From Pseudomonadota bacterium (GTDB taxonomy: Bacteria > Pseudomonadota > Alphaproteobacteria > Sphingomonadales > Sphingomonadaceae), in contig JADDQD010000249.1 of assembly GCA_016781555.1 (NCBI GenBank), positions 23,105-57,321 on the forward strand: a DNA stretch of 34,217 nucleotides, written 5' to 3'. The notes below the pieces were generated by a model. That model was not told the origin of the DNA, made no database searches, and saw only the letters and a program-made list of their open reading frames with translations. The position numbers and the translations under genes are program-made. This document shows, one piece after another, positions 5,297 through 28,737 of the stretch. How positions within the stretch are numbered: the stretch's first letter is position 1; the number at the start of each line of letters is the position of its first letter.

Positions 5297-5971
5297 CTAA
5301 GTGCCTGAACCCACTCTTGTGGCGGGCGCGGCAACATTGCTGGCGCCGGTAGTGGCGGAGCTATCCGCGGCGGCGGTCGGAAGCAGGCTCCTGACGTTAA
5401 GCGTCTCGGCCATGTGCGCGATCGCCGCAGTCGAAACCTCGATCTCGATAGCGATTCCGCTGCCGGTCCCGTATCCAATCGGAAGTCCCAGCGGCTTGAA
5501 GCGGTAGGCGCTGTTGATGAAGTAGGGGAGCAGCCGCACGTCGATGAAGTTCACGATCCGTCTAATGCCGGCATTCTGCGCCAGCTGAAGGATGGTGAGA
5601 CGCATCGCCGCGCGGATATCGTCGCGGGCGGCGACACGATATTTCGGTGTGACGAATCCTCGCGTCATTTCCCATGTTTTATCATCGATGATGCTGTCGG
5701 GACCGTCGGCGAGGGCGGAGCTAAAGATGTCCGTCAGCATCGATCCACGAAGCGTTGGCCGCATACGCTGGGAGTGAACCAGGTCGCCGTTGGCCTCGTA
5801 TTCGAGGATGTAGATCGCGTGCTCGTCGTCATACTGGTCGTACTCACGGCCGTTTGAGTGCGGCAGATCCCAGCCGTTCTCGTCGATGAAGACCTTTTTG
5901 CGCCAAATGTGCATCTCGTCGATCTTCGACGCGTGAAGCTGCCTGTCAGCGGCGGTGATCACGTAAAACAT
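5297..5971 (-). CDS. acyl-homoserine-lactone synthase (LuxI-type autoinducer synthase)
   Basis: RKKVFIDENGWDLP, E-Y-D-Q-Y-D-D, SQRMRPT and WEMTRGFV match the conserved R/F/W/E/D/D/R/E/R positions of LuxI-family enzymes. Confidence 0.92.
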   Translation of the reverse strand: MFYVITAADRQLHASKIDEMHIWRKKVFIDENGWDLPHSNGREYDQYDDEHAIYILEYEANGDLVHSQRMRPTLRGSMLTDIFSSALADGPDSIIDDKTWEMTRGFVTPKYRVAARDDIRAAMRLTILQLAQNAGIRRIVNFIDVRLLPYFINSAYRFKPLGLPIGYGTGSGIAIEIEVSTAAIAHMAETLNVRSLLPTAAADSSATTGASNVAAPATRVGSGT

Positions 5972-6018
5972 GCATCGGGCTCCCTATCGAGCTTCCAAGA
6001 TGCACGCCTACTTGGCCT

Positions 6019-6789
6019 CTAATGAATACGGCTTTTCCCGTAGGGGTCGTTCTCCTCGTCGAACCCTATAAGCCAGCCGTGTCTCCACGCTTCGAAGATC
6101 GCACTCGCCCGGTTGCTCGCTCCCAGCTTCGCACGAGCGTTGTCGATGTGCGTCCCAACCGTGCGCGGAGAGATCGAAAGTATGCGGCCTATCGCCCAGT
6201 CGGTCTTCCCCTGCGAGGCCCAGCTGAGACACTGGCATTCCCGGCTCGTCAGAGGTGTCGACGTGGGCTGATCCGCGCTGATCTCGAGCAGCGAGTTGCC
6301 GCAAGCCGCGTAGACGGTGGAGATGGCGGTCAGGGACGCGCGTTCGGCCCGATCGTGCTCAACCAGCGCATCGCTCGTCATGATGACGCCGACGACATCG
6401 CCATAGCTTCCCGTCACCGGGACCAGGAAGCCGCTGCGCAAGCCCGCCTTGCTCGCTTGGGTAAACACCTCCACCTCCTGAGGCCGCAACACGCCTGATT
6501 GCACGTCGGACCACGAGAACGATGAAGACCGCGCAAATATCTGACCCACGGTGGGATCGTGAAGGGCCAACTGCTCCTTGGTGTACCGCTTCACCCAGTC
6601 GCCACTGCTCCGTCCGAACAACATGCGGGGCTGGAATGGTCTGCCCGGTGAGGCGTAGTGCAAGCAGCCGAAGAAGGGGTAGCCGAACATGTCCAGCGTG
6701 GTCGCGAACATGTCGTTCAAGTGTCCTAGGCTCCTTGCCTCGGGACCCTCTTGAAGGAACCGAAAGGCGCTCTGCTCCCGGAGATTCAT
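6019..6789 (-). CDS. LuxR-type AHL-responsive transcriptional regulator
   Basis: Autoinducer-binding domain retains W...Y...DP...W (DWVKRYTKEQLALHDPTVGQIFARSSSFSWSDV). C-terminal LuxR HTH LTSRECQCLSWASQGKTDWAIGRILSISPRTVGTHIDNARAKLGASNRASAI. Start taken at MNLREQSAF; the ORF extends to 6873. Confidence 0.92.
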   Translation of the reverse strand: MNLREQSAFRFLQEGPEARSLGHLNDMFATTLDMFGYPFFGCLHYASPGRPFQPRMLFGRSSGDWVKRYTKEQLALHDPTVGQIFARSSSFSWSDVQSGVLRPQEVEVFTQASKAGLRSGFLVPVTGSYGDVVGVIMTSDALVEHDRAERASLTAISTVYAACGNSLLEISADQPTSTPLTSRECQCLSWASQGKTDWAIGRILSISPRTVGTHIDNARAKLGASNRASAIFEAWRHGWLIGFDEENDPYGKSRIH

Positions 6790-7014
6790 AGCGGACTTAT
6801 TACTTTTACCTCCTGAAAAGTTAAGGCTTAAAAAGCCTCCGGGGCCACGTGATGGTACTCTACCCTGGTTCATCGAGCGTGGCGGATGCGCCCAGGCAGA
6901 ATGGCTCGCTGCTGCGCCAAAATTTCGGTTTTTTCGGGGCGGTAGTTTGCTCAGCTTCGAAAGAGCCGCGTTCTAACGCGGAGTACCTGCGCTGCCCCTA
7001 ATCGCGATCGGGCC

Positions 7015-14839: not shown

Positions 14840-16156
14840 TTGGTGGCGTGGGATTTTGAGACAGAGCCCGAGTTTGCCGAGAAGCTCGAGTGGATGGACC
14901 AGTTCGTCGCCGAAAAGGTGGAGCCGCTTTCATTGCTCGGGATCCACCCGTCGGACGCCAAGAATCCAAGGCGCAACCAGCTCGTTCGCCCCCTCCAGGA
15001 AGCGGTAAAAGCACGAGGCCTGTGGGCGAGCCACCTCGGGCCTGAGCTGGGCGGTCAGGGCTACGGCCAGGTGAAGCTCGGCCTCATGAACGAGATCCTC
15101 GGACGGTCGAGCTTTGCGCCGTCCGTGTTCGGCTGCCAGGCTCCCGACACCGGGAATGCGGAGATCATCGCCCACTATGGAACCGAGGAGCAGAAGAAGC
15201 GGTATCTCGCGCCGTTGCTCAACAACGAGATGGTTTCCGCCTTCTCGATGACCGAGCCGCAGGGCGGATCGGATCCGCTGCTCTTCACCACCTCGGCGGT
15301 GCTTGACGGGGACGAGTGGGTGATCAAGGGCGAGAAGTGGTTCTCGACCAACGCCAAATGGTCGGAATTCCTGATCGTGATGGCGGTTACCGATCCTGAG
15401 GCGCCGCCTTACCAGCGGATGTCGATGTTCATTGTCCCGACCGACACTCCCGGCGTCGAGATCTTGCGAAACGTCGCGGTCTACGGCCAAGCCGAGGGCA
15501 GCGAAGGCTATGTCCGCTATACGGACGCCCGCGTACCCAAGGACCACCTGCTCGGCGAGCGCGGAGGAGCCTTCGTCATTTCGCAGACCCGGCTCGGCGG
15601 TGGCCGCATCCACCATGCCATGCGCACCGTCGGCGCCTGCAAGCGGGCGCTCGACCTGATGTGCCGACGGGCGGTCAGTCGCAAGACCCGCGACGGCGTG
15701 ATCGCCGACAAACAGGCGGTCCAGATGCAGATTGCCGACAGCTACATCGAGCTCGAGCAGTTCCGACTGTTTGTGCTGAAAACGGCTTGGATGATCGACA
15801 AGCACAAGGACTACAAGAAGGTCCGAAAAGACATTGCGGCGATCAAGGCGCTGATGCCGAAGGTCTATCACGACATCGCCGCGCGCGCGCTCCATATTCA
15901 CGGCTCACTCGGCGTTTCTGCGGAAATGCCGTTCGCCGGGCAGGTGATTGGCGCATTCGTTATGGGTATCGCGGACGGGCCGACCGAGGTCCACAAGGTG
16001 ACCGTCGCCCGCCAGCACCTGCGTGCCTATAATGACGTCGAAGATCCGATTTTCCCCGAATATTCTATTCCTTCCCTCCGCGCTGCGGCGCTCGAGCGCT
16101 ACGGGGATCCGACCGACACGCTGGTGACGATAGCAGAGGCAGCGGAAGCGGCCTGA
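14840..16156 (+). CDS. acyl-CoA dehydrogenase, ACAD10/11-like type
   Basis: FSMTEPQGGSDPLLFTTSAVLDGDEWVIKGEKWFSTNA; C-terminal GIADGPTEVHKVTVARQHL motif typical of ACAD10/11-like enzymes. Start TTG 14840 or GTG 14843. Confidence 0.92.
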   Translation: MVAWDFETEPEFAEKLEWMDQFVAEKVEPLSLLGIHPSDAKNPRRNQLVRPLQEAVKARGLWASHLGPELGGQGYGQVKLGLMNEILGRSSFAPSVFGCQAPDTGNAEIIAHYGTEEQKKRYLAPLLNNEMVSAFSMTEPQGGSDPLLFTTSAVLDGDEWVIKGEKWFSTNAKWSEFLIVMAVTDPEAPPYQRMSMFIVPTDTPGVEILRNVAVYGQAEGSEGYVRYTDARVPKDHLLGERGGAFVISQTRLGGGRIHHAMRTVGACKRALDLMCRRAVSRKTRDGVIADKQAVQMQIADSYIELEQFRLFVLKTAWMIDKHKDYKKVRKDIAAIKALMPKVYHDIAARALHIHGSLGVSAEMPFAGQVIGAFVMGIADGPTEVHKVTVARQHLRAYNDVEDPIFPEYSIPSLRAAALERYGDPTDTLVTIAEAAEAA

Positions 16157-16206
16157 GGGCGGGCGCGTGGATCGGCAAAGCGCCAGGCGAAGCGGAGGTC
16201 TCGAGC

Positions 16207-17760
16207 ATGGCTGAAGCGAAAGTGCTGCCCCAAGCGCAAGCGTGGACGGCTGGAGAGGTTGCGAGAACCGAGGCCCTCCGGGCAGCCTCCGCCCCACCGC
16301 TCGGGATGGGGACTCGCCTGAGCTACGGCTTTGGCGTCATTGCCTTCGGCATTAAGAACAGCGCCTTCGGCAGCTATTTGCTGCTTTACTACAATCAGGT
16401 GCTGGGCGTGCCGGCGGCAATCGTCTCGACCGCCCTTGCCGCCACCTTGATCATAGATGCGCTGGTCGATCCGCTGCTCGGCCGCTGGTCCGACGTGACC
16501 CGGACTCGCTGGGGCCGGCGCCATCCCTTCATCTATGCGGCGGCGCTGCCGACCGCTTTGTTCTTCCTGCTTGCGTGGTGGCCCCCGTCCGGCATGACCA
16601 ACCTTCAGACCGGCGTTTGGATATTCGCGACGGCGGCGCTGACGCGCGTCTCGATCAGCGCTTTCGAGATCAACACGTCGTCCATGGTCCCCGAACTCAC
16701 GAACAACTATTCCGAGCGCACCGCATTGTTCTCGCTGCGTTACTGGTTCGGCTATGCCGGGGCGTACGGTTTCGCCGCCTTCTCCCTTGCCTTCTTCTTT
16801 GTGGAAACGCCGGAATATCCGCGCGGCCAACTCAATCCCCCCGGCTATGTCAGCTTCTCGATCGCTGGCGCTCTGCTGATCTTCCTTGCCATCCTGGTCT
16901 GCGGCCTCGGCACGCACAATCGGATCCCCTTCCTTCGGCAGGCGGACGCGCGCGGCGAGCGCACTTCCGTCGCGACACACCTGAAAGAGATGTTCGCTGC
17001 GTTCCGGAATCGCGGCTTCCTGGCGATCTTCGGCTTTGGAGTGTGCAAATATTCGGCCATCGGGCTCTACAGCGCGATGACGCTTTACTTCATGACCTAT
17101 CTGTTCCGGCTGAATTCAATGCAGCTCGCATTGCTCGTCTTCGACAGTCTCGTGGCAGCGACGCTCGCGGCGCCGCTTGCACCATATTTCTCACGCAAGC
17201 TCGGCAAGCGGGCGAGTTCAATGATCTTCGCGGTCCTTGGCATCGTCATCGGCCTCAGCCCATTGTTGCTCAGCCTGTTGGACATGTTTTTCCGCCCCGG
17301 GGATCCCCGGCTGGTGCCGACACTGTTCATCATCGGCGCAGTCTACGGTTCAATGGTCGCAGTGTCGCTGATCAACACTTCGGCAATGCTCGCCGACGTC
17401 GTCGACGACAGCGCTGTCGAGACTGGCCGTCACAGCGCCGCGACCTTCTTTTCGGCGAGCAGCTTCATGCAGCAATGCTCGACTGGAGTCGGGATTCTGC
17501 TCGCCGGCCTGATCCTCAGCTGGTCGGAATTTCCGGAGCGCGCCGATCCTGCCGCTGTTCCCGAGGCAGCGATCGACAGCCTGCTCATCCACTACATCCC
17601 GACGATTCTGGGTCTGTGGTCGATCGGCGCGCTGTTTCTGCTTTTCTATCCGATCGACCGCGCGCGGCACCAGCGGAACCTCGAGGTACTGCAGGCTCGT
17701 CAGGCGGAGGCGATGGGCGTTGCCGCAGTGGATGCGCCGACTGGAGCTCCGTTACCATGA
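16207..17760 (+). CDS. MFS transporter, GPH (glycoside-pentoside-hexuronide):cation symporter-like
   Basis: LSYGFGVIAFGIKNSAFGSYLLLYYNQVLG...IIDALVDPLLGRWSDVTRTRWGRRHPFIYAAALP and about 12 hydrophobic segments. Confidence 0.88.
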   Translation: MAEAKVLPQAQAWTAGEVARTEALRAASAPPLGMGTRLSYGFGVIAFGIKNSAFGSYLLLYYNQVLGVPAAIVSTALAATLIIDALVDPLLGRWSDVTRTRWGRRHPFIYAAALPTALFFLLAWWPPSGMTNLQTGVWIFATAALTRVSISAFEINTSSMVPELTNNYSERTALFSLRYWFGYAGAYGFAAFSLAFFFVETPEYPRGQLNPPGYVSFSIAGALLIFLAILVCGLGTHNRIPFLRQADARGERTSVATHLKEMFAAFRNRGFLAIFGFGVCKYSAIGLYSAMTLYFMTYLFRLNSMQLALLVFDSLVAATLAAPLAPYFSRKLGKRASSMIFAVLGIVIGLSPLLLSLLDMFFRPGDPRLVPTLFIIGAVYGSMVAVSLINTSAMLADVVDDSAVETGRHSAATFFSASSFMQQCSTGVGILLAGLILSWSEFPERADPAAVPEAAIDSLLIHYIPTILGLWSIGALFLLFYPIDRARHQRNLEVLQARQAEAMGVAAVDAPTGAPLP

Positions 17761-17803
17761 CGCGCCATGAAGGATGCAGCAGGTTCCACTTTGGAAGCTG
17801 GGC

Positions 17804-18958
17804 ATGACCATCCGTGACAGGGCGTACATAGCGGGCGCGTTCGAACACCCGACGCGCCACGCCCCCGACAAGTCGACGCCGCAGCTTCATGCCGAGTGCG
17901 CGGCAGGGGCTCTCGCGGATTCGGGGCTGAGCCTTTCCGATGTCGACGGCTATTTCTGCGCCGGGGACGCGCCCGGGTTCGGCGGGATGTCGATGATCGA
18001 CTATCTCGGCCTCAACGTGCGGCACGTTGATTCCACCGAAACCGGCGGCTCGTCCTACATCCTCCATGTGTCGCACGCAGCGCAGGCGATCGCCGCCGGC
18101 AAATGTTCGGTCGCTCTGATCACGCTTGCGGGCCGTCCTCGCTCCGAGCCATTCGGACGCACGCCGGGCACGGCTCCTGAAGCTCCGTTCGAGAGTTGGT
18201 GCGGCGTGACAACGCACAACAGCTACGGCATGTGTGCGGCGCGCCACTCCCATGAATATGGTACGCGCCCTGAGCAGCTCGCCTGGATCAAGGTCGCGGC
18301 TTCGACGCACGCCCAGCACAACCCCCATGCAATGCTGCGCGACCTGGTGACGGTCGAGGATGTGCTCGCCTCGCCCATGATCTCGGACCCGCTGCGGCGG
18401 CTGGACTGCTGTGTGGTTTCGGATGGGGGAGGAGCGCTGCTGGTCGTCGCTCCCGAAGTCGCGAAGTCCCTGGATCGGCCGTTGGTGTCTGTTCGCGGGG
18501 CGGGCGAGGCTGTGAAGGGGCCGATGGGCGGCCGTAATCTCGACCTCACCACATCGGCTGCGGCTCGCTCCGGACCCGCCGCCTTTGAGGAAGCTGGCGT
18601 GTCGCCGTCTGACATCAAATATGCCTCCATCTACGACAGTTTCACGATCACCGTGCTCATCCAGCTCGAAGACCTCGGATTTTGCGCAAAAGGCGAGGGC
18701 GGGCGCTTCGTTGCTGACGGAAACCTGATCTCCGGCGCCGGACGGCTTCCGTTCAACACGGACGGCGGCGGCCTCTGCAACAATCATCCCACCAATCGCG
18801 GCGGCATCACCAAGGTTATCGAGGCGGTCCGGCAGCTTCGAGGGGAGGCTCACCCCGCGGTGCAGGTTGCGAACTGCGACCTCGCCCTTGCCACCGGCAT
18901 TGGCGGGTCGCTCGGAACCCGACACGGCGCCGCCACTTTGATCCTGGAAAGACAGTGA
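17804..18958 (+). CDS. thiolase-like / lipid-transfer protein (SCP2-thiolase, Ltp2-like aldolase candidate)
   Basis: MTIRDRAYIAGAFEHPTRHAPDKSTPQLHAECAAGALADSGLSLSDVDGYFCAGDAPG...; thiolase fold ends GGLCNNHPTNRGGITKVIEAVRQL and ATGIGGSLGTRHGAATLIL. The nucleophile region reads DSTETGGSSYILH with no Cys. Confidence 0.88.
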   Translation: MTIRDRAYIAGAFEHPTRHAPDKSTPQLHAECAAGALADSGLSLSDVDGYFCAGDAPGFGGMSMIDYLGLNVRHVDSTETGGSSYILHVSHAAQAIAAGKCSVALITLAGRPRSEPFGRTPGTAPEAPFESWCGVTTHNSYGMCAARHSHEYGTRPEQLAWIKVAASTHAQHNPHAMLRDLVTVEDVLASPMISDPLRRLDCCVVSDGGGALLVVAPEVAKSLDRPLVSVRGAGEAVKGPMGGRNLDLTTSAAARSGPAAFEEAGVSPSDIKYASIYDSFTITVLIQLEDLGFCAKGEGGRFVADGNLISGAGRLPFNTDGGGLCNNHPTNRGGITKVIEAVRQLRGEAHPAVQVANCDLALATGIGGSLGTRHGAATLILERQ

Positions 18959-19362
18959 TGACTGACAGCAGTTCCCGAAAGCCGCCCTCGCCGGCACCCA
19001 CGCCCGAGAACGAGCCTTTCTGGGCAGCGGCAGCGGAAGGAACTTTGCTCATCAAGCGCTGCCGTTCCTGCGGCAACGCGCATTATTATCCGCGGGCGAT
19101 CTGCCCCTACTGCTTTTCCACCGACACGGCTTGGCAAGCATCGAAGGGCGAGGGCGAGATCTACAGCGTGTCGGTGATGCGTCGGGGAGCGAATGCGCCG
19201 TATGCGCTCGCTTATGTGACATTGGACGAGGGGCCCAGCATGCTCACCAACATCACCGGCTGCGATTTCGATGCCTTGCGTATCGGTCAGCGAGTCGCGG
19301 TCCGCTTCCTATCCACGGATGCGGGGCCTCCCCTACCCATGTTTGCGCCGATTGGAGATTGA
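18958..19362 (+). CDS. Zn-ribbon / OB-fold DUF35 protein
   Basis: LLIKRCRSCGNAHYYPRAICPYCFSTDTAWQASKGEGEIYSVSVMRRG...YALAYVTLDEGPSMLTNITGCD: rubredoxin-like CxxC...CPYC plus OB fold. Start overlaps the upstream stop (TGATG). Confidence 0.92.
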   Translation: MTDSSSRKPPSPAPTPENEPFWAAAAEGTLLIKRCRSCGNAHYYPRAICPYCFSTDTAWQASKGEGEIYSVSVMRRGANAPYALAYVTLDEGPSMLTNITGCDFDALRIGQRVAVRFLSTDAGPPLPMFAPIGD

Positions 19363-19363
19363 T

Positions 19364-20572
19364 ATGGCAACCGCCCTGGACACCCCAACCGAAAAGCCGC
19401 TCGACGCCTTCCGTGAAGAGGCGCGCGCCTGGCTCGAAACGAATTTCCCGAAGTCCCTCGAGGGGAAGGAGAACGCTTTCCTGAGCATCGACGCGCCAGC
19501 TCAGACGTCGCCGGACTATCTGGCGTGGAAGCAGGCGATGGCCGACAAAGGCTGGGGCGTGCCGACCTGGCCGAAGCAATATGGCGGCGGCAGTCTCAGC
19601 CGCGCCGAAGCCAGAATGCTCGCCGAAGAAATGGCGCGGATCGGCGCCTGGAACCCGATCGGCGGCATGGGCGTGATGATGTTCGGCCCGACGCTTCTTG
19701 AATATGGCAGCGAGGAGCAGAAGCAGCGGCACATTCCGCCCATCGCACGCGGCGAAATTCGATGGTGCCAGGGCTATTCCGAACCGGGCGCGGGATCGGA
19801 CCTCGCCGCGCTGCAAACGCGCGCAGAGGACAAAGGCGATCACTTCCTTGTCAACGGCCAGAAGACCTGGACCAGCGGCGGTCAATGGGCCGACTGGTGC
19901 TTTGCGCTGGTGCGTACCGACTCCACCCGCAAGCACGAGGGCATTAGCTTTCTCCTCATCGACATGAAGTCGCCCGGGGTGGATGTGCGGCCGATCCGGC
20001 TGATCTCCGGCAGTTCCCCTTTCTGCGAGACCTTCTTCACCGATGTCGAAGTGCCGAAGGAGAATCTCGTCGGCCCGCTGGGCGGCGGCTGGACGATCGG
20101 CAAGCGGCTGCTCCAGCACGAGCGGACCAACCTCTCCGGCGGGGGCCGTCTTGCTGCGGCGATGGGACGCTCGCTGGTGGACATCGCCAAGCATTATGTC
20201 GGTACGGACAACGAGGGCCGGATCGCCGATGCTGACCTGAGGCAGCGGATCATCCGCTATGAGATGGAGATGCGCGCCTTCACCATGACCGCGCGCCGCG
20301 TCATGGAGGAGGCCAAAGGCGGAGGTGTCTCGACCGCGAGTTCGATCCTCAAGAATGTCGGCGCGAAACTGACCCAGGAGCGGGCCGAACTCACGATCGA
20401 AATCATGGGAATGAGCGGCCTTGGGTGGGAAGGCGAAATGTTCAGCGAAAGCGAACTCAGCGCCACGCGCAGCTGGCTGTGGGGCAAGGCAGTGACGATT
20501 TACGGCGGTTCGACCGAGATCCAGAACAACGTCATCGCCAAGCGCATCCTTGGCATGCTCGATCACCAATAA
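19364..20572 (+). CDS. acyl-CoA dehydrogenase (candidate alpha subunit of a heteromeric ACAD)
   Basis: WCQGYSEPGAGSDLAALQTRAEDKGDHFLVNGQKTWTSGGQWADWCFALVRTD; C-terminal AVTIYGGSTEIQNNVIAKRILGM. Confidence 0.93.
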   Translation: MATALDTPTEKPLDAFREEARAWLETNFPKSLEGKENAFLSIDAPAQTSPDYLAWKQAMADKGWGVPTWPKQYGGGSLSRAEARMLAEEMARIGAWNPIGGMGVMMFGPTLLEYGSEEQKQRHIPPIARGEIRWCQGYSEPGAGSDLAALQTRAEDKGDHFLVNGQKTWTSGGQWADWCFALVRTDSTRKHEGISFLLIDMKSPGVDVRPIRLISGSSPFCETFFTDVEVPKENLVGPLGGGWTIGKRLLQHERTNLSGGGRLAAAMGRSLVDIAKHYVGTDNEGRIADADLRQRIIRYEMEMRAFTMTARRVMEEAKGGGVSTASSILKNVGAKLTQERAELTIEIMGMSGLGWEGEMFSESELSATRSWLWGKAVTIYGGSTEIQNNVIAKRILGMLDHQ

Positions 20573-20599
20573 CTCCACTCGAAGAAGGAACGGCCCATA

Positions 20600-21715
20600 A
20601 TGGCGGCGCTCAACGACGAACAGATCATGCTTCGCGACATGGCCCGCGAGTGGGTGCAGAATGAAGCCCCGGTGAGCGCATTCCGGAAGGTGCGGGATTC
20701 CGGCACCAAGCTTGGTTATGACCCCGAGGCCTACGCTGCCATGGCCGCGATGGGCTGGGTCGGGATCGTCATTCCCGAAGCTTATGGCGGCTCCGATTTC
20801 GGCTATCTGAGCTTGGGTCTCGTCCTCGAGGAAACCGGCCGCACGCTGGTTGCAAGCCCTCTCGCCTCGAGCGGGCTGGCTGCTGCCAGCGCGCTCGTGC
20901 TTGGCGGAACCGAAAGCCAGAAGCAGGCGTGGCTGTCAGGGATTGCCTCTGGCGAGGTGGTGGCCGGCTTGGCCGTCGACGAGGGGCCGCGCCACGAGCC
21001 GACCAAGATCGAGACACGCGCCGAGCGGAGCCAGGACGGCTGGCGGATCAGCGGAACCAAGTCCTTCGTTGCCGAGGGCGATGGCGCGAGCTTGTTCATT
21101 GTCGCTGCCCGGACGGACGCGGGCGTGGGTCTCTTCCTGGTTCCCGGCGAGGTTGAAGGCCTGACTCGCGCTACGCGCAGGATGGCCGACTCACGAAGCC
21201 ATGCCGACATACGCTTGGCGGGGGTCCAGCTGGGCGAAGAAGCACTTCTCGGGAGCGAGGATGGGGCGGCGCTCCTCGATCAGGTTTTGGACCGAGCGCG
21301 GGTCGGTACCGCGGCCGAGATGCTGGGCATGGCAGAACAGGCGTTCCAGACGACGCTCGACTTTCTGAAGAGCCGCGTCCAGTTCGGACAAACGCTCGCC
21401 ACCTTCCAGGCGCTGCAGCACCGGATGGCGAAGCTTTATACCGACATGGAGCTGATGCGCTCAGTCGTTGAAGCGGCGCTCGAGGCGGTAGATGCCGGGC
21501 GCTCGGACCTGCCGGTGCTTGCCTCGCTCGCGAAGGCCACCGCGAACGAGACGCTCCACCTGATGAGCCGGGAAATGATCCAGCTCCATGGCGGCATCGG
21601 CATGACCGACGAGCATGAGGCGGGCTTCTACATCAAGCGCGCGCGAGTTCTCGAAAACATGTGGGGGAATGCAAGCTTCCACCGCGAGCGCTTTGCGCGC
21701 CTCTCCGGCTTTTAG
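20600..21715 (+). CDS. acyl-CoA dehydrogenase (candidate beta subunit of a heteromeric ACAD)
   Basis: GWVGIVIPEAYGGSDFGYLSLGLVLEETGRTL; SRVQFGQTLATFQALQHRMAKLYTDME; IQLHGGIGMTDEHEAGFYIKRARVLENMWGNASFHRERFA. Confidence 0.92.
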   Translation: MAALNDEQIMLRDMAREWVQNEAPVSAFRKVRDSGTKLGYDPEAYAAMAAMGWVGIVIPEAYGGSDFGYLSLGLVLEETGRTLVASPLASSGLAAASALVLGGTESQKQAWLSGIASGEVVAGLAVDEGPRHEPTKIETRAERSQDGWRISGTKSFVAEGDGASLFIVAARTDAGVGLFLVPGEVEGLTRATRRMADSRSHADIRLAGVQLGEEALLGSEDGAALLDQVLDRARVGTAAEMLGMAEQAFQTTLDFLKSRVQFGQTLATFQALQHRMAKLYTDMELMRSVVEAALEAVDAGRSDLPVLASLAKATANETLHLMSREMIQLHGGIGMTDEHEAGFYIKRARVLENMWGNASFHRERFARLSGF

Positions 21716-21721
21716 AAGGTT

Positions 21722-23014
21722 GTGGCGGACAGCCCGGCCGATGAAGCAGCAGTGCGGGCAGGCCGCGAGGCTGAGTTCGAGACTTTCGTTGAAGAGCACC
21801 TGAAGCGAAACTATCGGGCAAGCTTCGTCCACGGCATGCTGGGCCTGACCGGCTTCCGCCTGATTTACGCCCCCACAATCATCCCGGCCTACCTCCACCT
21901 TCTCACCGGCTCCGCGGCGATGGTGGGAATGGGCCAGGCGCTGCTCCAGCTTGGGGCGGTCCTCTCGCCGATCGTCGGCGCGGCGCGGATCGAGCATCGC
22001 CAGCGCATTCTTCCGTACGCGATCAGGGTCGGCACGTTGATGCGCGTCCAGATCCTCGGGCTGGCGCTGGCCGGCTGGTTTCTCGTCGGGCTGCCTCTCC
22101 TGGTCGCGACCATGACCTTCTTCTTCCTGCTCGGCATTTTCACGGGCACGCAGCGCGTTGCCTTTCAGATGCTGGTGGCGAAGGTCATTCCGATCAAGCG
22201 GCGGGGGCGGCTTCAAGCATGGCGCAACCTTACTGGCGGCCTGATTGCCGCCGCCCTCGCCTACGTCGCCGGTCGGTACTTCATCGAGGGCGATGTGCTT
22301 GGCAACGGCTATGCCACCACCTTCTTCCTTGCCTTCGTCCTGACGAGCCTGGGCCTCCTCGTCCTGCAGTTGCTGCTTGTTGAGCCCGAACTGCCGGAGG
22401 TTCGCGCGCAAATGCCGCTCGCCGAGCGGATGCGGGAATTTCCGCAGCTTCTTGCCGACCGCGACTTTCGCTGGTTCATGGTCGCTCAAGCCCTGACGGT
22501 GGCGGGACGCGCCGCCAGTCCCTTCTACATCCTTTATGCAGGCCAGCACCTGAAGCTCGACGGGAGCACCATCGGTCTCCTCTCCTTCGCCTTTCTCGGC
22601 GCCGATACGGTTTCCAACCTGCTGTGGGGCTATCTGGGCGATCGCTTTGGCTTCAGGCTGAGCTTCCTCACCGCGATCCTCGTCTGGATCGTTGCTGTCG
22701 TGACGCTCCTCTTCGCTGACACCCAGACCGGCTTCCTGATCAGCTTCATTGGCCTGGGAGCGGCGGCATCGGGATATATGATGAGCGCCATGACGATGGT
22801 GCTCGAATTCGGCTCGCGCGAAGATATTCCGATGCGGCTGGCACTGTCCGCCACCGTGGAGGGAGCCATTGCGGCTTCCGGGCCATTGGCCGCGGGGGTT
22901 TTAGCTGTAACGCTCGGATACAGCGCGCTGATCGTCGTCACGCTTGCGTTCCTCGCTTGCGCGTTCGTTGTCCTCCTGTTTCGGGTACGTGAGCCAAGGA
23001 CCCGCGCCAGCTAG
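21722..23014 (+). CDS. MFS transporter
   Basis: About 12 hydrophobic helices (FVHGMLGLTGFRLIYAPTIIPAYLHLLTGSAAMVGMGQALLQLGAVLSPIVGAARIEHR...); GTG start 7 nt after the ACAD stop. Confidence 0.85.
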   Translation: MADSPADEAAVRAGREAEFETFVEEHLKRNYRASFVHGMLGLTGFRLIYAPTIIPAYLHLLTGSAAMVGMGQALLQLGAVLSPIVGAARIEHRQRILPYAIRVGTLMRVQILGLALAGWFLVGLPLLVATMTFFFLLGIFTGTQRVAFQMLVAKVIPIKRRGRLQAWRNLTGGLIAAALAYVAGRYFIEGDVLGNGYATTFFLAFVLTSLGLLVLQLLLVEPELPEVRAQMPLAERMREFPQLLADRDFRWFMVAQALTVAGRAASPFYILYAGQHLKLDGSTIGLLSFAFLGADTVSNLLWGYLGDRFGFRLSFLTAILVWIVAVVTLLFADTQTGFLISFIGLGAAASGYMMSAMTMVLEFGSREDIPMRLALSATVEGAIAASGPLAAGVLAVTLGYSALIVVTLAFLACAFVVLLFRVREPRTRAS

Positions 23015-23059
23015 GCCGCGCACGTAATCTCTGCAGCAAAAACCGTTGTCGATCAAAGA

Positions 23060-23082
23060 GCTTCGCGGCCCGGGCGCGAAGC
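23060..23082. terminator. stem-loop downstream of the MFS gene
   Basis: 8-bp perfect stem GCTTCGCG (23060-23067)/CGCGAAGC (23075-23082), loop GCCCGGG. No U-tract, so terminator function is uncertain. Confidence 0.4.
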
Positions 23083-23182
23083 CCACTCAGTTCTTGACCC
23101 TCAGCACGAACTCCGGTTTATTCGAATGCTTGGTATTGCAACGTGGACTTCAAAAGGAGCCGCCGCCGCCTGGGGAGGAATC

Positions 23183-26155
23183 ATGAAACAGAAGATTGGG
23201 TTCAAAACTCAAAGCGCGCTCGGCGTGCTCGCGGCTGGGTTGATGATGGGACTCGCTGCGCCGGCCGCTGCCCAGGTCGCGCAGTCTTCTGCGCCTGACG
23301 CGGAAAACAATCCCCAGACGGCCGAAGAGCCCACCCAGGTCCCGGAGATCGTCGTCACCGGCACGCTCATTCGAGGAACCTCCGAACTCGCAGCGCTGCC
23401 GGTCGACGTGGTAAGCGCGGAAGAGATCGCCAACCAGGGCTCGCCGAGCATTCTCGAGCTCATGAAGCGCCTTCCGGTGGCGAGCGGCGTCCTTGGTGAG
23501 CAGAATCAGTTCGATGCCCGTGCCCAAGGCTCCGAAGGCGTGGTGTCCGTAAACCTGCGCGGCCTTGGGCCTGGCCGCACGCTGGTGCTGCTCAACGGCC
23601 GCCGCCTCGCCCTGGCGCCGATCGGCATTCCGTCGGTCGACGTCAGCTTGCTCCCCATCGCCGCGCTCGGCCGCCTCGAAGTGCTTAGGGACGGCGGAGC
23701 GGCGACTTACGGGTCGGACGCGCTCGCCGGCGTGGTCAACTTCATCACCAACAGCCGCTTGCAGGGTTTCGTCGTCGGCGGCGATTACAAATATTACGAA
23801 GGGTCCGACGGAGAATATAGCGCGTCGCTTACCTTCGGTCACAACAACCGGAACGGCTTCCGCTTTCTGGGCTCGGTTGCGTATCAGCACCGCTCACCTC
23901 TGCCGGTGCTGGAGCGTGAATTCACCCAGCAGCCCTTCTCCGTCAATCCCGCCGGCGGCTTCACCCTCGGCGGCAATCCGAGCGTATTCCTCCCATTCCG
24001 CATCGGAGCTCCGGGCACAGGCGTGACCGCCGGCTTGCAGCTCGACCGTGGCTGCCAACCACTCGGGGGCACAGTCACGGTCGTCTCCGGGGCGCAGCGG
24101 TGCGCGAACCAATTTACGCCCTTCGACCTACTGGTGGAGGACGAAGATCGGATACAGGCTTATCTCGAAACCGGCATCGAAATCGCCGAGGGAATGGAAC
24201 TGACGCTGACCGGCCTTATGGGCCACAGCCACGTCCGCTCCAACACATCGCCGACATTCCTCCTGCTGAACACGCCGTCGCGGCTTGCCAATCCAATTGG
24301 CGCCCAGTTCTTCGTCCCTGCCAACAACCCGGGCCTCGCCGCCTATCGTGCGGCAAACCCGGATCAGTTTCCCGGCGGCGCAACCAATGCTTTGCTTGCC
24401 GCCGGCACCTTCCGCACCGCCCTGCTCGGCGGGAACCCCTTGTTCTCCAACGTGAATGGAATCCCCGGTGCCGGGCCCGTCCAACGCTGGTCGGAGTCGG
24501 CGCGCTTTTCGGCGGTGCTCGGCGGGGAATTCACTGACGCGCTCAACTATGAGCTCGGCGTCACCTATCACGAATATACCCGCCGAAGCACGCAGCTCGA
24601 TACAATCGTGGATCGGCTGCAGCTCGCGCTTCGTGGGCTCGGCGGAGAGAATTGCAACCGCGCAGCCAACACGCCCGGCCGGAATGGCTGCCTCTTCTAC
24701 AATCCGTTCTCGAATGCCATTCAGCGCAATCCGCTCACGGGTCAGGTCAACCCGGGCTTCAATGCAGCGGTGGCGAATTCAAACGAGGTCTTCGAATATT
24801 TCCTGAAGCCGAGCTTCTCGCGCCTGACCAACGAAATTCTCGTCGCTGACGCCCTAGTGAGCGGCCAGACCGGCATCACCCTGGGCGGCGGAGCCGTCGG
24901 CTTTGCCGTCGGCGCGCAATATCGCAAGGAGAAGGCGAGAGGCAGGTACGGCTTTTTCAACAACCGAGACATCAATCCTTGCCCATCTTCGTTGGATTTC
25001 GGCGTGAACACCTGTACGCAGCCGACCGGATTGTTCGGCTTCCTCGGCGCCAGCTCCGACTATGACACAAGCGGCGACGTCAAGGCGACCTTTGCCGAGT
25101 TGCAGATCCCGGTCCTCGACACCATCAACGTCCAGCTCGCTGCGCGCTATGAGGATTTCGGCGGGCGGGTCGGATCGACGTTCGACACGCAGGCGCGCGC
25201 GCGCTGGCAGGTAACGCCATGGCTGGCGCTTCGCGGCGGCATCGGCACCACCTTCCGAGCGCCGCCGATCACGATCATCCAGCCGAACGATTTCGTCACA
25301 TCGCTCCAGTTCGTCGGCGGTTCGTTCCGCGCCGTGGTGGTGCAGGACAACCCCAATCTGACGCCGGAGAAGGCGCTCAACTACAGCGCCGGCGTGGTGC
25401 TCGAGGCTGGGGGCTTCCGCGGCACGGTCGATTACTACCGCTACGAACTCGAGGACCAACTGGTCGCTGAACCGGTGTCTGGCCTGCGCCGCGCGGTGTT
25501 CGGTGGAACCGATGCGCCCTCTGCTCTAGCGAACTGCTCCAGCCCATTCATCGGCAGGTTCACGCTCAACCAGCCTTGTGTGCAGGGCACCACCAACCTC
25601 GGCAATGTCACTCGCATCACGACGAGCTTTATCAACGGTCCGGAGCTGCAGAATTCGGGCGTGGACGTCCTCGCTGACTACTCGTTCGAAGTGGGGTCGG
25701 CGCGGATGATGGTCGGCGGCACCGGCACCTATATCTTGGATTATAAGAACGGCGACCTTTTGACGGACGGCATTCTGCTGCAGCCCGGCTTCAACGCGGT
25801 CGGAAAGCTGAACTTCCAGACGACCGCTTACCCGCTGCCGCGGATCAGGGGCCAGGCCTATGTCCAGGGCGAAATGGGGCCCCACCACCTGCGCGCGACC
25901 GTGAACTACGTTCACCGCTACAAGGACCAGCGTTTCGAATCCACGCCTGATGTGCCTGGGTTTCGGATTAGCTCCTTCACGACCGTGGATCTGGTGTACC
26001 GTCTCAATCTGTTCGAAACGACTGACATCACGCTCGCCGCCTTCAACATCTTCGACGAGGAACCGCCGTTCGCGCGGCTCGACTTCAACTACGACCCATT
26101 CACGGCGAGCCCGGTGGGCCGTCAGCTGAAGGTCGGCATCTCAACGCGCTTCTGA
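23183..26155 (+). CDS. TonB-dependent outer-membrane receptor
   Basis: Signal peptide MKQKIGFKTQSALGVLAAGLMMGLAAPAAAQ; TonB-box/plug region PEIVVTGTLIRG...SVNLRGLGPGRTLVLLNGRRLA...RDGGAATYGSDALAGVVNFIT; C-terminal ...GRQLKVGISTRF ending in Phe. Confidence 0.95.
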   Translation: MKQKIGFKTQSALGVLAAGLMMGLAAPAAAQVAQSSAPDAENNPQTAEEPTQVPEIVVTGTLIRGTSELAALPVDVVSAEEIANQGSPSILELMKRLPVASGVLGEQNQFDARAQGSEGVVSVNLRGLGPGRTLVLLNGRRLALAPIGIPSVDVSLLPIAALGRLEVLRDGGAATYGSDALAGVVNFITNSRLQGFVVGGDYKYYEGSDGEYSASLTFGHNNRNGFRFLGSVAYQHRSPLPVLEREFTQQPFSVNPAGGFTLGGNPSVFLPFRIGAPGTGVTAGLQLDRGCQPLGGTVTVVSGAQRCANQFTPFDLLVEDEDRIQAYLETGIEIAEGMELTLTGLMGHSHVRSNTSPTFLLLNTPSRLANPIGAQFFVPANNPGLAAYRAANPDQFPGGATNALLAAGTFRTALLGGNPLFSNVNGIPGAGPVQRWSESARFSAVLGGEFTDALNYELGVTYHEYTRRSTQLDTIVDRLQLALRGLGGENCNRAANTPGRNGCLFYNPFSNAIQRNPLTGQVNPGFNAAVANSNEVFEYFLKPSFSRLTNEILVADALVSGQTGITLGGGAVGFAVGAQYRKEKARGRYGFFNNRDINPCPSSLDFGVNTCTQPTGLFGFLGASSDYDTSGDVKATFAELQIPVLDTINVQLAARYEDFGGRVGSTFDTQARARWQVTPWLALRGGIGTTFRAPPITIIQPNDFVTSLQFVGGSFRAVVVQDNPNLTPEKALNYSAGVVLEAGGFRGTVDYYRYELEDQLVAEPVSGLRRAVFGGTDAPSALANCSSPFIGRFTLNQPCVQGTTNLGNVTRITTSFINGPELQNSGVDVLADYSFEVGSARMMVGGTGTYILDYKNGDLLTDGILLQPGFNAVGKLNFQTTAYPLPRIRGQAYVQGEMGPHHLRATVNYVHRYKDQRFESTPDVPGFRISSFTTVDLVYRLNLFETTDITLAAFNIFDEEPPFARLDFNYDPFTASPVGRQLKVGISTRF

Positions 26156-26272: not shown

Positions 26273-27490
26273 CTAGCGAGGTGGATCGGCAAACAAGCCG
26301 TAGGCAATCGTGGAGGCATAATCGGCGACCGCCCGATCAGGCTCGGTTCTGTGCGCCCATTTTTGAAGATCCACCGCAGCGTTCAGCATCGCCATAATAG
26401 CTTGGCTGGCTACCAGCGGATCTATCGCTCGCATCGAACCCTCGGTGATCCCGTCGATCATGGTGCCCGCGAACCGCCGCGCCATTCGGTTCGAACGGTC
26501 GACGACCTGATTGCGAAGATCCCCCGGTAGGGCTTGCAAGGCCGTCGTGCGAAGCAGCGGATGATCTCCGAAGAACTGGAAGTGAAGCAAGGTCACGATC
26601 GCCGAGGTGAGGCGCTGCCAGTAGCTTCCGCCGGTCTCATCCGCGGCAGCCTGCACCAGCGAGACGCGCTCGTAGCTTCGGCGAAAGCATTGGACGACCA
26701 GGTCGTCCTTCGCCTCGAGATGGTGATAGAAGCTGCCCTTGGTCACGTTGAGTTCCGAGGCGATCCGCTCGACGGAAGCGCCGCGGTAGCCCCGGACGTT
26801 GATCAGCCGGATTGCGGCCCTCAGGAACTTCTCCTGGGCTGGGTCCTCACCGGGTTGGCCGATCGTTAGCAGCAGTGGCTCCCAGGGCGCTCCCTTGGCA
26901 CCGATGCCCCCATCGAAAATCTCGAACAGGCGGTGGCGAACCCGTTCGAAATCGGCTGTCGAGTAGCGCGTCAGCCATGCCGGCAGCCAAAACGTGTTTT
27001 CGATGAGCACATTCGCGCGCGCAGTGTTGAGGCGTTTTTGATCGTCCCCTTCCGCGGGTCCGAAAAAGTCCCGCACCTTGCGGAAGATCGCGGACCATTT
27101 CTCCGCCAGTTCATTCCGGAGCGGCTCTTCCAGCGCGCGCATGTCGGACAGCACCGTTACCGCTCGCTCCTCGCGGCGGCGAATCCGCGCCCGCATGTCG
27201 AAATGGAGCTTTAGATACGCCGCGACGCGGGCCCGCGGATCGGCCTCAGACCCGGCCTCTTCCACCTGTTCTTCCAGCCGGCTGAGCGAATGTTCGAGAG
27301 CGGCCGCGGCGAGCAGCTCCTTGCGTTTGAAATAGTAGGTGACGCTCGTGGTGTTGAGGTTCACCATGTCGGCCACGTCCACGAACGTCATGCCCCTAAC
27401 GCCGTTCTGGTTGATCAGCGCGGACGCGGCGTCCAAAATCGCTTCGCGCTTTTGCTGGAATCGGCTGGTCTGGTCCGGCTGCGTGCTCAT
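26273..27490 (-). CDS. tandem double-TetR transcriptional regulator
   Basis: First TetR_N: KREAILDAASALINQNGVRGMTFVDVADMVNLNTTSVTYYFKRKELLAAAALEHSL. Second TetR_N: AQEKFLRAAIRLINVRGYRGASVERIASELNVTKGSFYHHLEAKDDLVVQCFRRSY. Both in one 405-aa ORF. Confidence 0.93.
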   Translation of the reverse strand: MSTQPDQTSRFQQKREAILDAASALINQNGVRGMTFVDVADMVNLNTTSVTYYFKRKELLAAAALEHSLSRLEEQVEEAGSEADPRARVAAYLKLHFDMRARIRRREERAVTVLSDMRALEEPLRNELAEKWSAIFRKVRDFFGPAEGDDQKRLNTARANVLIENTFWLPAWLTRYSTADFERVRHRLFEIFDGGIGAKGAPWEPLLLTIGQPGEDPAQEKFLRAAIRLINVRGYRGASVERIASELNVTKGSFYHHLEAKDDLVVQCFRRSYERVSLVQAAADETGGSYWQRLTSAIVTLLHFQFFGDHPLLRTTALQALPGDLRNQVVDRSNRMARRFAGTMIDGITEGSMRAIDPLVASQAIMAMLNAAVDLQKWAHRTEPDRAVADYASTIAYGLFADPPR

Positions 27491-27678: not shown

Positions 27679-28737
27679 ATGACCACGGCTTCATCGGCTT
27701 TGACTGGATCGGCGGAAGATCTGGATCGCGCAAGCCTCGAGCGCTGGCTGGCGGCGAACATTCCGGGCATTGCAGGACCGATCGAGGTCAGCAAGTTTCC
27801 GGGAGGTCAGTCCAACCCGACGTACCGGGTCTATGCGAGCTCGGGCAAATATGTGCTGCGGCGAAAGCCATTCGGCCCGATCCTTGCTTCCGCTCACGCC
27901 GTGGAGCGTGAATTCCGGCTGATTTCCGCGCTTCACCCGGCCGGGTTTCCCGTCGCGGAGCCATACGCGCTTTGCGAGGATCCGCAGGTGATCGGCGTCC
28001 CGTTTTACGTCATGTCGCTGGTCCAAGGCAGGACCTTTTGGGACGGCAAGCTGCCGGGGGAGACGCCGGAGACCCGCAGGGCGGTTTACGAGGCGATGAT
28101 CCGAACGCTTGCGGACCTTCATTCGCTCGATCCCGCGCGGCTCGGCCTTGCCGACTACGGCCCACCGGGCAATTATTTCGAGCGCCAGGTGCGCCGCTGG
28201 ACCAAACAATATCGGGCGGCGCAGACGGACGACCTGGAGACCGTCGAAAAGCTGATCGAGTTCCTGTCCCGCACGGTTCCCGAGCAAACGCGCACGTCGA
28301 TCATCCACGGTGACTACCGGATCGACAACATGATCTTCGCGCCGGGCAAGCCCGAGATCCTGGCCGTGCTTGACTGGGAGCTTTCGACTCTCGGCGATCC
28401 CCTTGCCGACTTTGCCTATCTGGCAATGCAGTGGGAGATGCCCTCCGAAGGTGAGGGCGCGGGCCTCAAAGGCGTCGACTTCGCTGCCACCGGTATCCCG
28501 ACACTGGAGGAGGCGGTGACGCTTTATTGCGGACTAACGGGGCGGGATGGAGTCCCAGACCTCCAATGGTATTTCTCGTATAACCTGTTTCGCCTGCTTG
28601 GCATCGTGCAGGGCATCCGCAAGCGCTTCCTGGACGGCAATGCCTCCAGCGACAATGCGGAGGCGGCAGGCTCGCGCGTTCCCATGCTTGCCGCTGCCGC
28701 GTGGGAATTCGCCCGGAAGGCCGGCGCACCAGCCTGA
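27679..28737 (+). CDS. phosphotransferase (APH) family protein, ACAD10/11 APH-domain-like
   Basis: VSKFPGGQSNPTYRVYASSGKYVLRRKPFGPILASAHAVEREFRLISAL; TSIIHGDYRIDNMIFAPGKPEILAVLDWELSTLGDPLADFAYL: kinase-like HGDxRxDN and DWE motifs. Confidence 0.93.
   Translation: MTTASSALTGSAEDLDRASLERWLAANIPGIAGPIEVSKFPGGQSNPTYRVYASSGKYVLRRKPFGPILASAHAVEREFRLISALHPAGFPVAEPYALCEDPQVIGVPFYVMSLVQGRTFWDGKLPGETPETRRAVYEAMIRTLADLHSLDPARLGLADYGPPGNYFERQVRRWTKQYRAAQTDDLETVEKLIEFLSRTVPEQTRTSIIHGDYRIDNMIFAPGKPEILAVLDWELSTLGDPLADFAYLAMQWEMPSEGEGAGLKGVDFAATGIPTLEEAVTLYCGLTGRDGVPDLQWYFSYNLFRLLGIVQGIRKRFLDGNASSDNAEAAGSRVPMLAAAAWEFARKAGAPA

Follow-up and report, generated by a model that had tools for sequence, protein, structure and literature searches.

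Thiolase-fold enzymes with a DUF35 partner

Two-subunit acyl-CoA aldolases built on the thiolase fold are the nearest characterized systems to the gene pair described here. Two of them are Ltp2–ChsH2 of Thermomonospora curvata (6OK1) and Sal–Shy of Comamonas testosteroni (9MYR). In both, the thiolase-fold chain lacks the nucleophilic Cys of thiolases, carries a tyrosine in a YDxF/Y motif and is joined by a DUF35 protein. Mutants have led to Tyr294 of Ltp2 and Tyr302 of Sal being reported as essential, and Gly89 of Sal is described as the equivalent of the thiolase Cys (PMC12329534). Residue counts along the PDB chains recover positions 294/344 and 302/352, the latter once a uniform shift of 24, due to a tag on the Sal chain, is allowed for. 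A third system, IpfD/IpfE, is found on the ibuprofen plasmid pIBU218 of Rhizorhabdus wittichii, where the IpfD gene was assigned by its place between dioxygenase and CoA-ligase genes. Retro-aldol release of propionyl-CoA from ibuprofen dihydrodiol is reported for this pathway (PMC9195938). DUF35 proteins also serve Cys-dependent enzymes: the benzoylsuccinyl-CoA thiolase BbsAB, the archaeal thiolase/HMG-CoA synthase complex and PhlABC. For PRK08142, PRK06158 or the 'thiolase' structure 4U4E of Sphaerobacter thermophilus, no relevant open-access paper on function was found.

The window, that is, the whole stretch of 34,217 nt that was analysed, comes from a draft genome with a completeness of 82%. 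It contains a run of + strand genes (14840–26155) with intergenic gaps of −1 to 111 nt, a cluster that is also present in Maricaulis and, partially, in Sphingomonadaceae:

14840..16156, + strand, ACAD11-like acyl-CoA dehydrogenase, first gene of the cluster
16207..17760, + strand, GPH-type MFS transporter of the conserved cluster, 43 nt upstream of the thiolase-like gene
17804..18958, + strand, thiolase-fold protein of the PRK08142 family, 384 aa, probable acyl-CoA retro-aldolase subunit
18958..19362, + strand, DUF35 partner of the ChsH2 type, zinc ribbon and OB fold, 134 aa, stand-alone
19364..20572, + strand, acyl-CoA dehydrogenase subunit, best PDB matches Tcur3483 and ChsE4 (4X28)
20600..21715, + strand, acyl-CoA dehydrogenase, probable partner subunit, best PDB match Tcur3481
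21722..23014, + strand, MFS transporter, 6 nt downstream of the second acyl-CoA dehydrogenase gene
23126..26155, + strand, TonB-dependent receptor at the end of the run

The 384-residue protein is a full-length match to NF006010 (PRK08142), scoring 717.5 bits (curated cut-off 462 bits; E 3e-216) over profile positions 1–388 of 388, and includes the Pfam domain Thiolase_C_1 (E 8e-50). Its nearest relatives are found in Sphingomonadaceae (86–88% identity) and Maricaulis (79–81%), which makes a sphingomonad-like source probable. The preliminary description of this DNA had reported a thiolase-like gene and a DUF35 gene overlapping at TGATG; both open reading frames are present, and the stop TGA (18956–18958) indeed shares this pentamer with the DUF35 start ATG (18958–18960). 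A promoter and terminator scan gave nothing better than shuffled sequences. The 134-residue partner contains OB_ChsH2_C (E 2e-19) and zf-ChsH2 (E 9e-15), both above the Pfam cut-offs, with a zinc ribbon of the form C35-x2-C38-x10-C49-x2-C52, and its best PDB match is chain B of 6OK1. Wherever the contig extends far enough, the DUF35 gene lies directly downstream (78 of 78 relatives), so the two genes form a unit in close relatives. One more distant, plasmid-borne relative (L118, 71%) has its DUF35-type gene several kilobases from the thiolase-like gene. Adjacency to DUF35 was rejected as proof of aldolase chemistry, because Cys-dependent enzymes of the same branch, BbsAB and PhlABC among them, are paired with such a protein too.

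Active site and phylogenetic position

Alignment places the following elements in the thiolase-like gene:

18029..18067, + strand, DSTETGGSSYILH, residues 76–88, the loop that holds the nucleophilic Cys in thiolases
18047–18049, + strand, codon of Gly82, the thiolase nucleophile column
18632..18643, + strand, Y277-D-S279-F, aldolase-type Tyr motif
18764..18793, + strand, GGGLCNNHPT, residues 321–330, with the conserved His328-Pro329

The claim that the nucleophile loop is free of Cys is borne out, with residue numbers that had been off by one. The Gly82 column holds the catalytic Cys of Pyrococcus furiosus thiolase 7YVY and Gly89 of CtSal. Among 84 relatives with at least 70% identity, Gly81, Gly82, Tyr277, Asp278, Ser279, Phe280, His328 and Pro329 are invariant. 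Residue 83 is Ser or Cys across this set (Cys in 29 of 84); Cys83 was dismissed as a hidden nucleophile, lying one residue off the column and being Ser in most relatives. The second catalytic thiolase Cys, that of CxG or of HDCF, is likewise absent, the corresponding segments reading ATGIGG, without Cys, and YDSF, with Ser279. A catalytic Cys/His pair had been named beforehand as the result that would count against a non-thiolytic enzyme. By alignment, only half of it is found: the His of the thiolase HxP motif is retained as His328 in 84/84 relatives, and the catalytic Cys is missing.

Tyr277 shares its column with Ltp2 Tyr294 and Sal Tyr302, where thiolases have an Asn or His oxyanion residue. 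The motif reads YDSF in the query, YDHF in Ltp2, YDCY in Sal and YDAF in IpfD, in contrast to NEAF or HDCF in thiolases. In 193 distinct thiolase-fold proteins drawn from about 260 loci, Tyr occupies this position in every one of the 137 Cys-less proteins and in none of the 56 Cys-bearing ones. A wider alignment, with sequences as low as 28% identity, shows Tyr277 in all of its rows. The sequence comparison favours an aldolase-type active site in the query. The His328 column corresponds to Tyr344 of Ltp2 and Gln352 of Sal, so that inspection of the active-site tyrosines, as the preliminary description had proposed, recovered the aldolase Tyr and found Ltp2's second catalytic Tyr replaced by His.

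Each known system is matched in part. The query resembles Ltp2–ChsH2 (35% identity) in its fold, Cys-less loop, YDxF tyrosine and C4-zinc DUF35 partner; it differs in YDSF for YDHF, His328 for Tyr344 and its clade. It is not an Ltp2 orthologue, having His328 for one catalytic Tyr and Ser279 for the His of YDHF. Sal–Shy (36% identity) shares the fold, Gly at the Cys position, the Tyr base and DUF35, whereas the query has Ser279 for the catalytic Cys304, His328 for Gln352, and a free-standing DUF35 protein with a C4 ribbon in place of Shy, which is fused to MaoC and has a C3H1 ribbon. IpfD/IpfE is likewise Cys-less, with YDxF and an adjoining OB-fold DUF35-type gene. IpfD has YDAF, however, and a Tyr at the His328 position (equivalent to Ltp2 Tyr344), and its substrate is a ring dihydrodiol that a dioxygenase produces; the window's cluster was found to contain no such dioxygenase gene. 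The best fold match, 4U4E (47% identity), has YDSF, an HP motif and no Cys; it belongs to a sister subfamily with an HPGMYG loop. The SCP2-type and DUF35-linked thiolases (7YVY, BbsB 7PXP and 6ESQ) share the fold and the HxP His, and DUF35 accompanies BbsAB and the archaeal complex. Unlike the query, they possess the nucleophilic Cys, have His or Asn instead of Tyr, and fall apart from the Tyr clade. On these residue patterns, we read the PRK08142 branch as a putative third active-site variant, distinct from the Ltp2 and Sal types.

In a maximum-likelihood tree the Cys-less/Tyr proteins, including CtSal, TcLtp2, IpfD, 4U4E and the query, form one clade (support 100/96; 100/100 with the motif columns masked). 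Because the tree groups them all together, the 137/56 split goes back essentially to a single ancestral change that was strictly kept afterwards, rather than to repeated ones. Within the clade, PRK08142 forms a supported subclade (100/100), and together with PRK06158-like proteins and 4U4E makes up one branch of 23 rows (100/98 to 100/99). A position of the query nested inside the known aldolases was rejected, since Ltp2, Sal and IpfD form the sister group of its branch, with weak support (87/83). An AlphaFold2 model of the 384-residue protein (mean pLDDT 89.5, pTM 0.91) was ranked by Foldseek closest to 4U4E, then Sal, then Ltp2, then thiolases. Since the fold is common to all of them, this ranking is only a modest discriminator between aldolases and thiolases.

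Proposed reaction and alternatives

A retro-aldol, non-thiolytic role, suggested as plausible at the outset, holds up well: both thiolase Cys residues are missing, the Tyr is present, the protein falls in the aldolase clade, and Sal and Ltp2 are the nearest characterized folds. The pair is probably a two-subunit, DUF35-dependent acyl-CoA aldolase acting on a putatively hindered or branched beta-hydroxyacyl-CoA. A probability of about 0.62 is given to this reading, held at that level because the query stands beside, not among, the known aldolases. For the reaction, residue roles, complex formation and substrate we infer the following scheme. (i) A beta-hydroxyacyl-CoA, probably hindered or branched at the beta-carbon, would be bound by the thiolase-fold subunit. 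(ii) Tyr277 would act as the base that takes the proton off the beta-hydroxyl, as in Ltp2 and Sal. (iii) The alpha–beta C–C bond would then break to give a thioester enolate. (iv) His328, as acid or oxyanion residue, may help to stabilize and reprotonate the enolate. (v) Either acetyl-CoA or propionyl-CoA would be released, together with an aldehyde or a ketone. With Gly82 at the position of the thiolase Cys, the beta-oxygen would have space and could accept a hydrogen bond from the backbone NH. The DUF35 subunit would steady the core dimer and shape the substrate cleft, as in Ltp2–ChsH2 and Sal–Shy. By analogy with Sal, Ser279 is an unlikely enolate acid, because the C304S variant of that enzyme is inactive, Ser being no replacement for Cys304. 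A MaoC hydratase gene directly behind DUF35 in 23 relatives, and the resemblance of the next two genes of the window to heteromeric steroid side-chain acyl-CoA dehydrogenases, also count in favour of the aldolase reading. Several points weigh on the other side. A His as the acid residue, rather than Tyr or Cys, would be new, no hydratase gene was found in the window or on the contig, relatives in two phyla have a (3R)-hydroxyacyl-CoA dehydrogenase gene beside the pair, and the Cys-less/Tyr partition counts for less because it is essentially one evolutionary event.

The alternative that survives best is a Cys-independent retro-Claisen cleavage, in which a beta-ketoacyl-CoA would be cleaved by direct attack of hydroxide or CoA on its ketone, while Tyr277 polarizes the carbonyl and His328 serves as base. 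The retained thiolase His agrees with such a mechanism, and its strongest evidence is the short-chain dehydrogenase/reductase (SDR) genes beside the pair in relatives. A two-domain MaoC hydratase directly follows the DUF35 gene in 23 relatives, with an SDR next in most of them. Rhodococcus and Mycobacterium have an SDR gene that runs into the start of the thiolase-like gene, and in Bradyrhizobium-type genomes the pair adjoins an MFE-2-type (3R)-hydroxyacyl-CoA dehydrogenase. The neighbouring SDRs are similar to the portion of MFE-2 that acts as (3R)-hydroxyacyl-CoA dehydrogenase (best PDB 2ET6, 17beta-HSD4). The occurrence of such SDRs, together with hydratase-2/MaoC genes, in two unrelated lineages and two phyla suggests a beta-keto substrate, suited to retro-Claisen cleavage. 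Nevertheless, the members of the Cys-less/Tyr clade with a described function are retro-aldolases of steroids and ibuprofen, the dehydrogenase could serve another step, and no SDR was found in the window's cluster. To our knowledge, no thiolase-fold enzyme runs a Cys-independent retro-Claisen cleavage. Such a reaction is considered unlikely for this pair. Its extension to the whole PRK08142 branch as cysteine-free 'thiolases', in which Tyr and the retained His would cleave beta-ketoacyl-CoA by attack of CoA or water with no acyl-enzyme, appears decidedly unlikely.

Equally doubtful is a narrower form of the aldolase reading, that the pair does the job of Ltp2 or Sal proper and cleaves steroid side chains in the source organism. 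Sal and Ltp2 are its best characterized fold matches, and the neighbouring acyl-CoA dehydrogenases point the same way. For the first, Tcur3483/ChsE4 leads the other families by a clear margin (3e-43 against 3e-32); for the second, the lead of Tcur3481 over other PDB matches is only marginal. We take these three PDB entries to be steroid enzymes. The two genes suggest a heteromeric acyl-CoA dehydrogenase and a bulky substrate, with steroids not proven. The query, however, lies in a separate clade from Ltp2 and Sal, and the family's hosts include Bradyrhizobium, Cupriavidus and haloarchaea, with no sign of steroids as a common link. The 82% complete draft genome has no match to KshA_C, an absence that in a draft is weak evidence.

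Still less is to be said for a synthetic aldol condensation, or for a non-catalytic or CoA-decarboxylating protein like the trypanosome SLP. This last precedent is real: TbSLP shares the Tyr, lacks the Cys and has only trace malonyl-CoA decarboxylase activity (PMC12329534). However, the active-site residues are strictly conserved, and the surroundings are rich in CoA ligase, acyl-CoA dehydrogenase and uptake genes; both facts speak against these readings, which we regard as improbable. A conventional thiolase using another Cys, for example Cys325 in the LCNNHP motif peculiar to the family (kept in 83/84 relatives, three residues ahead of His328), is very hard to credit. Both canonical Cys positions are empty, Tyr takes the place of the Asn/His oxyanion residue, and at position 325 the sister family has Ser or Ala, and Ltp2/Sal have Gly or Ser.

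Distribution and gene surroundings

The pair is named 'thiolase' or 'acetyl-CoA acetyltransferase' in hundreds of genomes of Proteobacteria and Actinobacteria and on haloarchaeal plasmids. If the active-site reading is true, this name is wrong, and pathway reconstructions that let the pair complete beta-oxidation are wrong with it; the misnaming probably extends to the entire, widespread family. Such proteins can be re-annotated from a single alignment column, which has Tyr where the nucleophilic Cys is lost and Asn or His otherwise. How the acid role moves among Tyr, Cys and His within a single fold can be probed cleanly with the His328 variant. Because the clade members with a described function are steroid and ibuprofen aldolases, the PRK08142 branch could show that branched or bulky side chains are removed by retro-aldol cleavage from substrates far more varied than steroids.

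Several related loci were encountered. A Halomarina plasmid carries a PRK08142–DUF35 pair (61% identity) amid acyl-CoA dehydrogenases, which suggests transfer between domains of life. On pIBU218, about 11 kb from IpfD, lies a second Cys-less pair (L121:939-2503), Ltp2-like with YDHF and its own OB-fold partner, and adjoined by an enoyl-CoA hydratase gene. One large alphaproteobacterial genome (G234; loci L122, L136, L142 and L235) has Cys-less/Tyr paralogues with YDSF (twice), YDAF and YENF, hinting at several substrates, and an HDCF thiolase beside them.

Further genes of the window are of separate interest. An APH-family kinase (27679–28737) belongs to the same conserved cluster as the ACAD11-like gene, an arrangement like a split animal ACAD10/11; the animal proteins phosphorylate 4-hydroxyacyl-CoAs for entry into beta-oxidation (PMC11342911, PMC12440821). 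A 405-residue regulator (26273–27490, − strand) has two TetR DNA-binding domains per chain and is conserved in the Maricaulis clusters. Towards the start of the window, a LuxI-like autoinducer synthase gene and a LuxR-type regulator gene lie side by side (5297–6873, − strand), and an insertion sequence transposase pair (1252–2603, + strand) comprises HTH_Tnp_1 and an rve integrase core.
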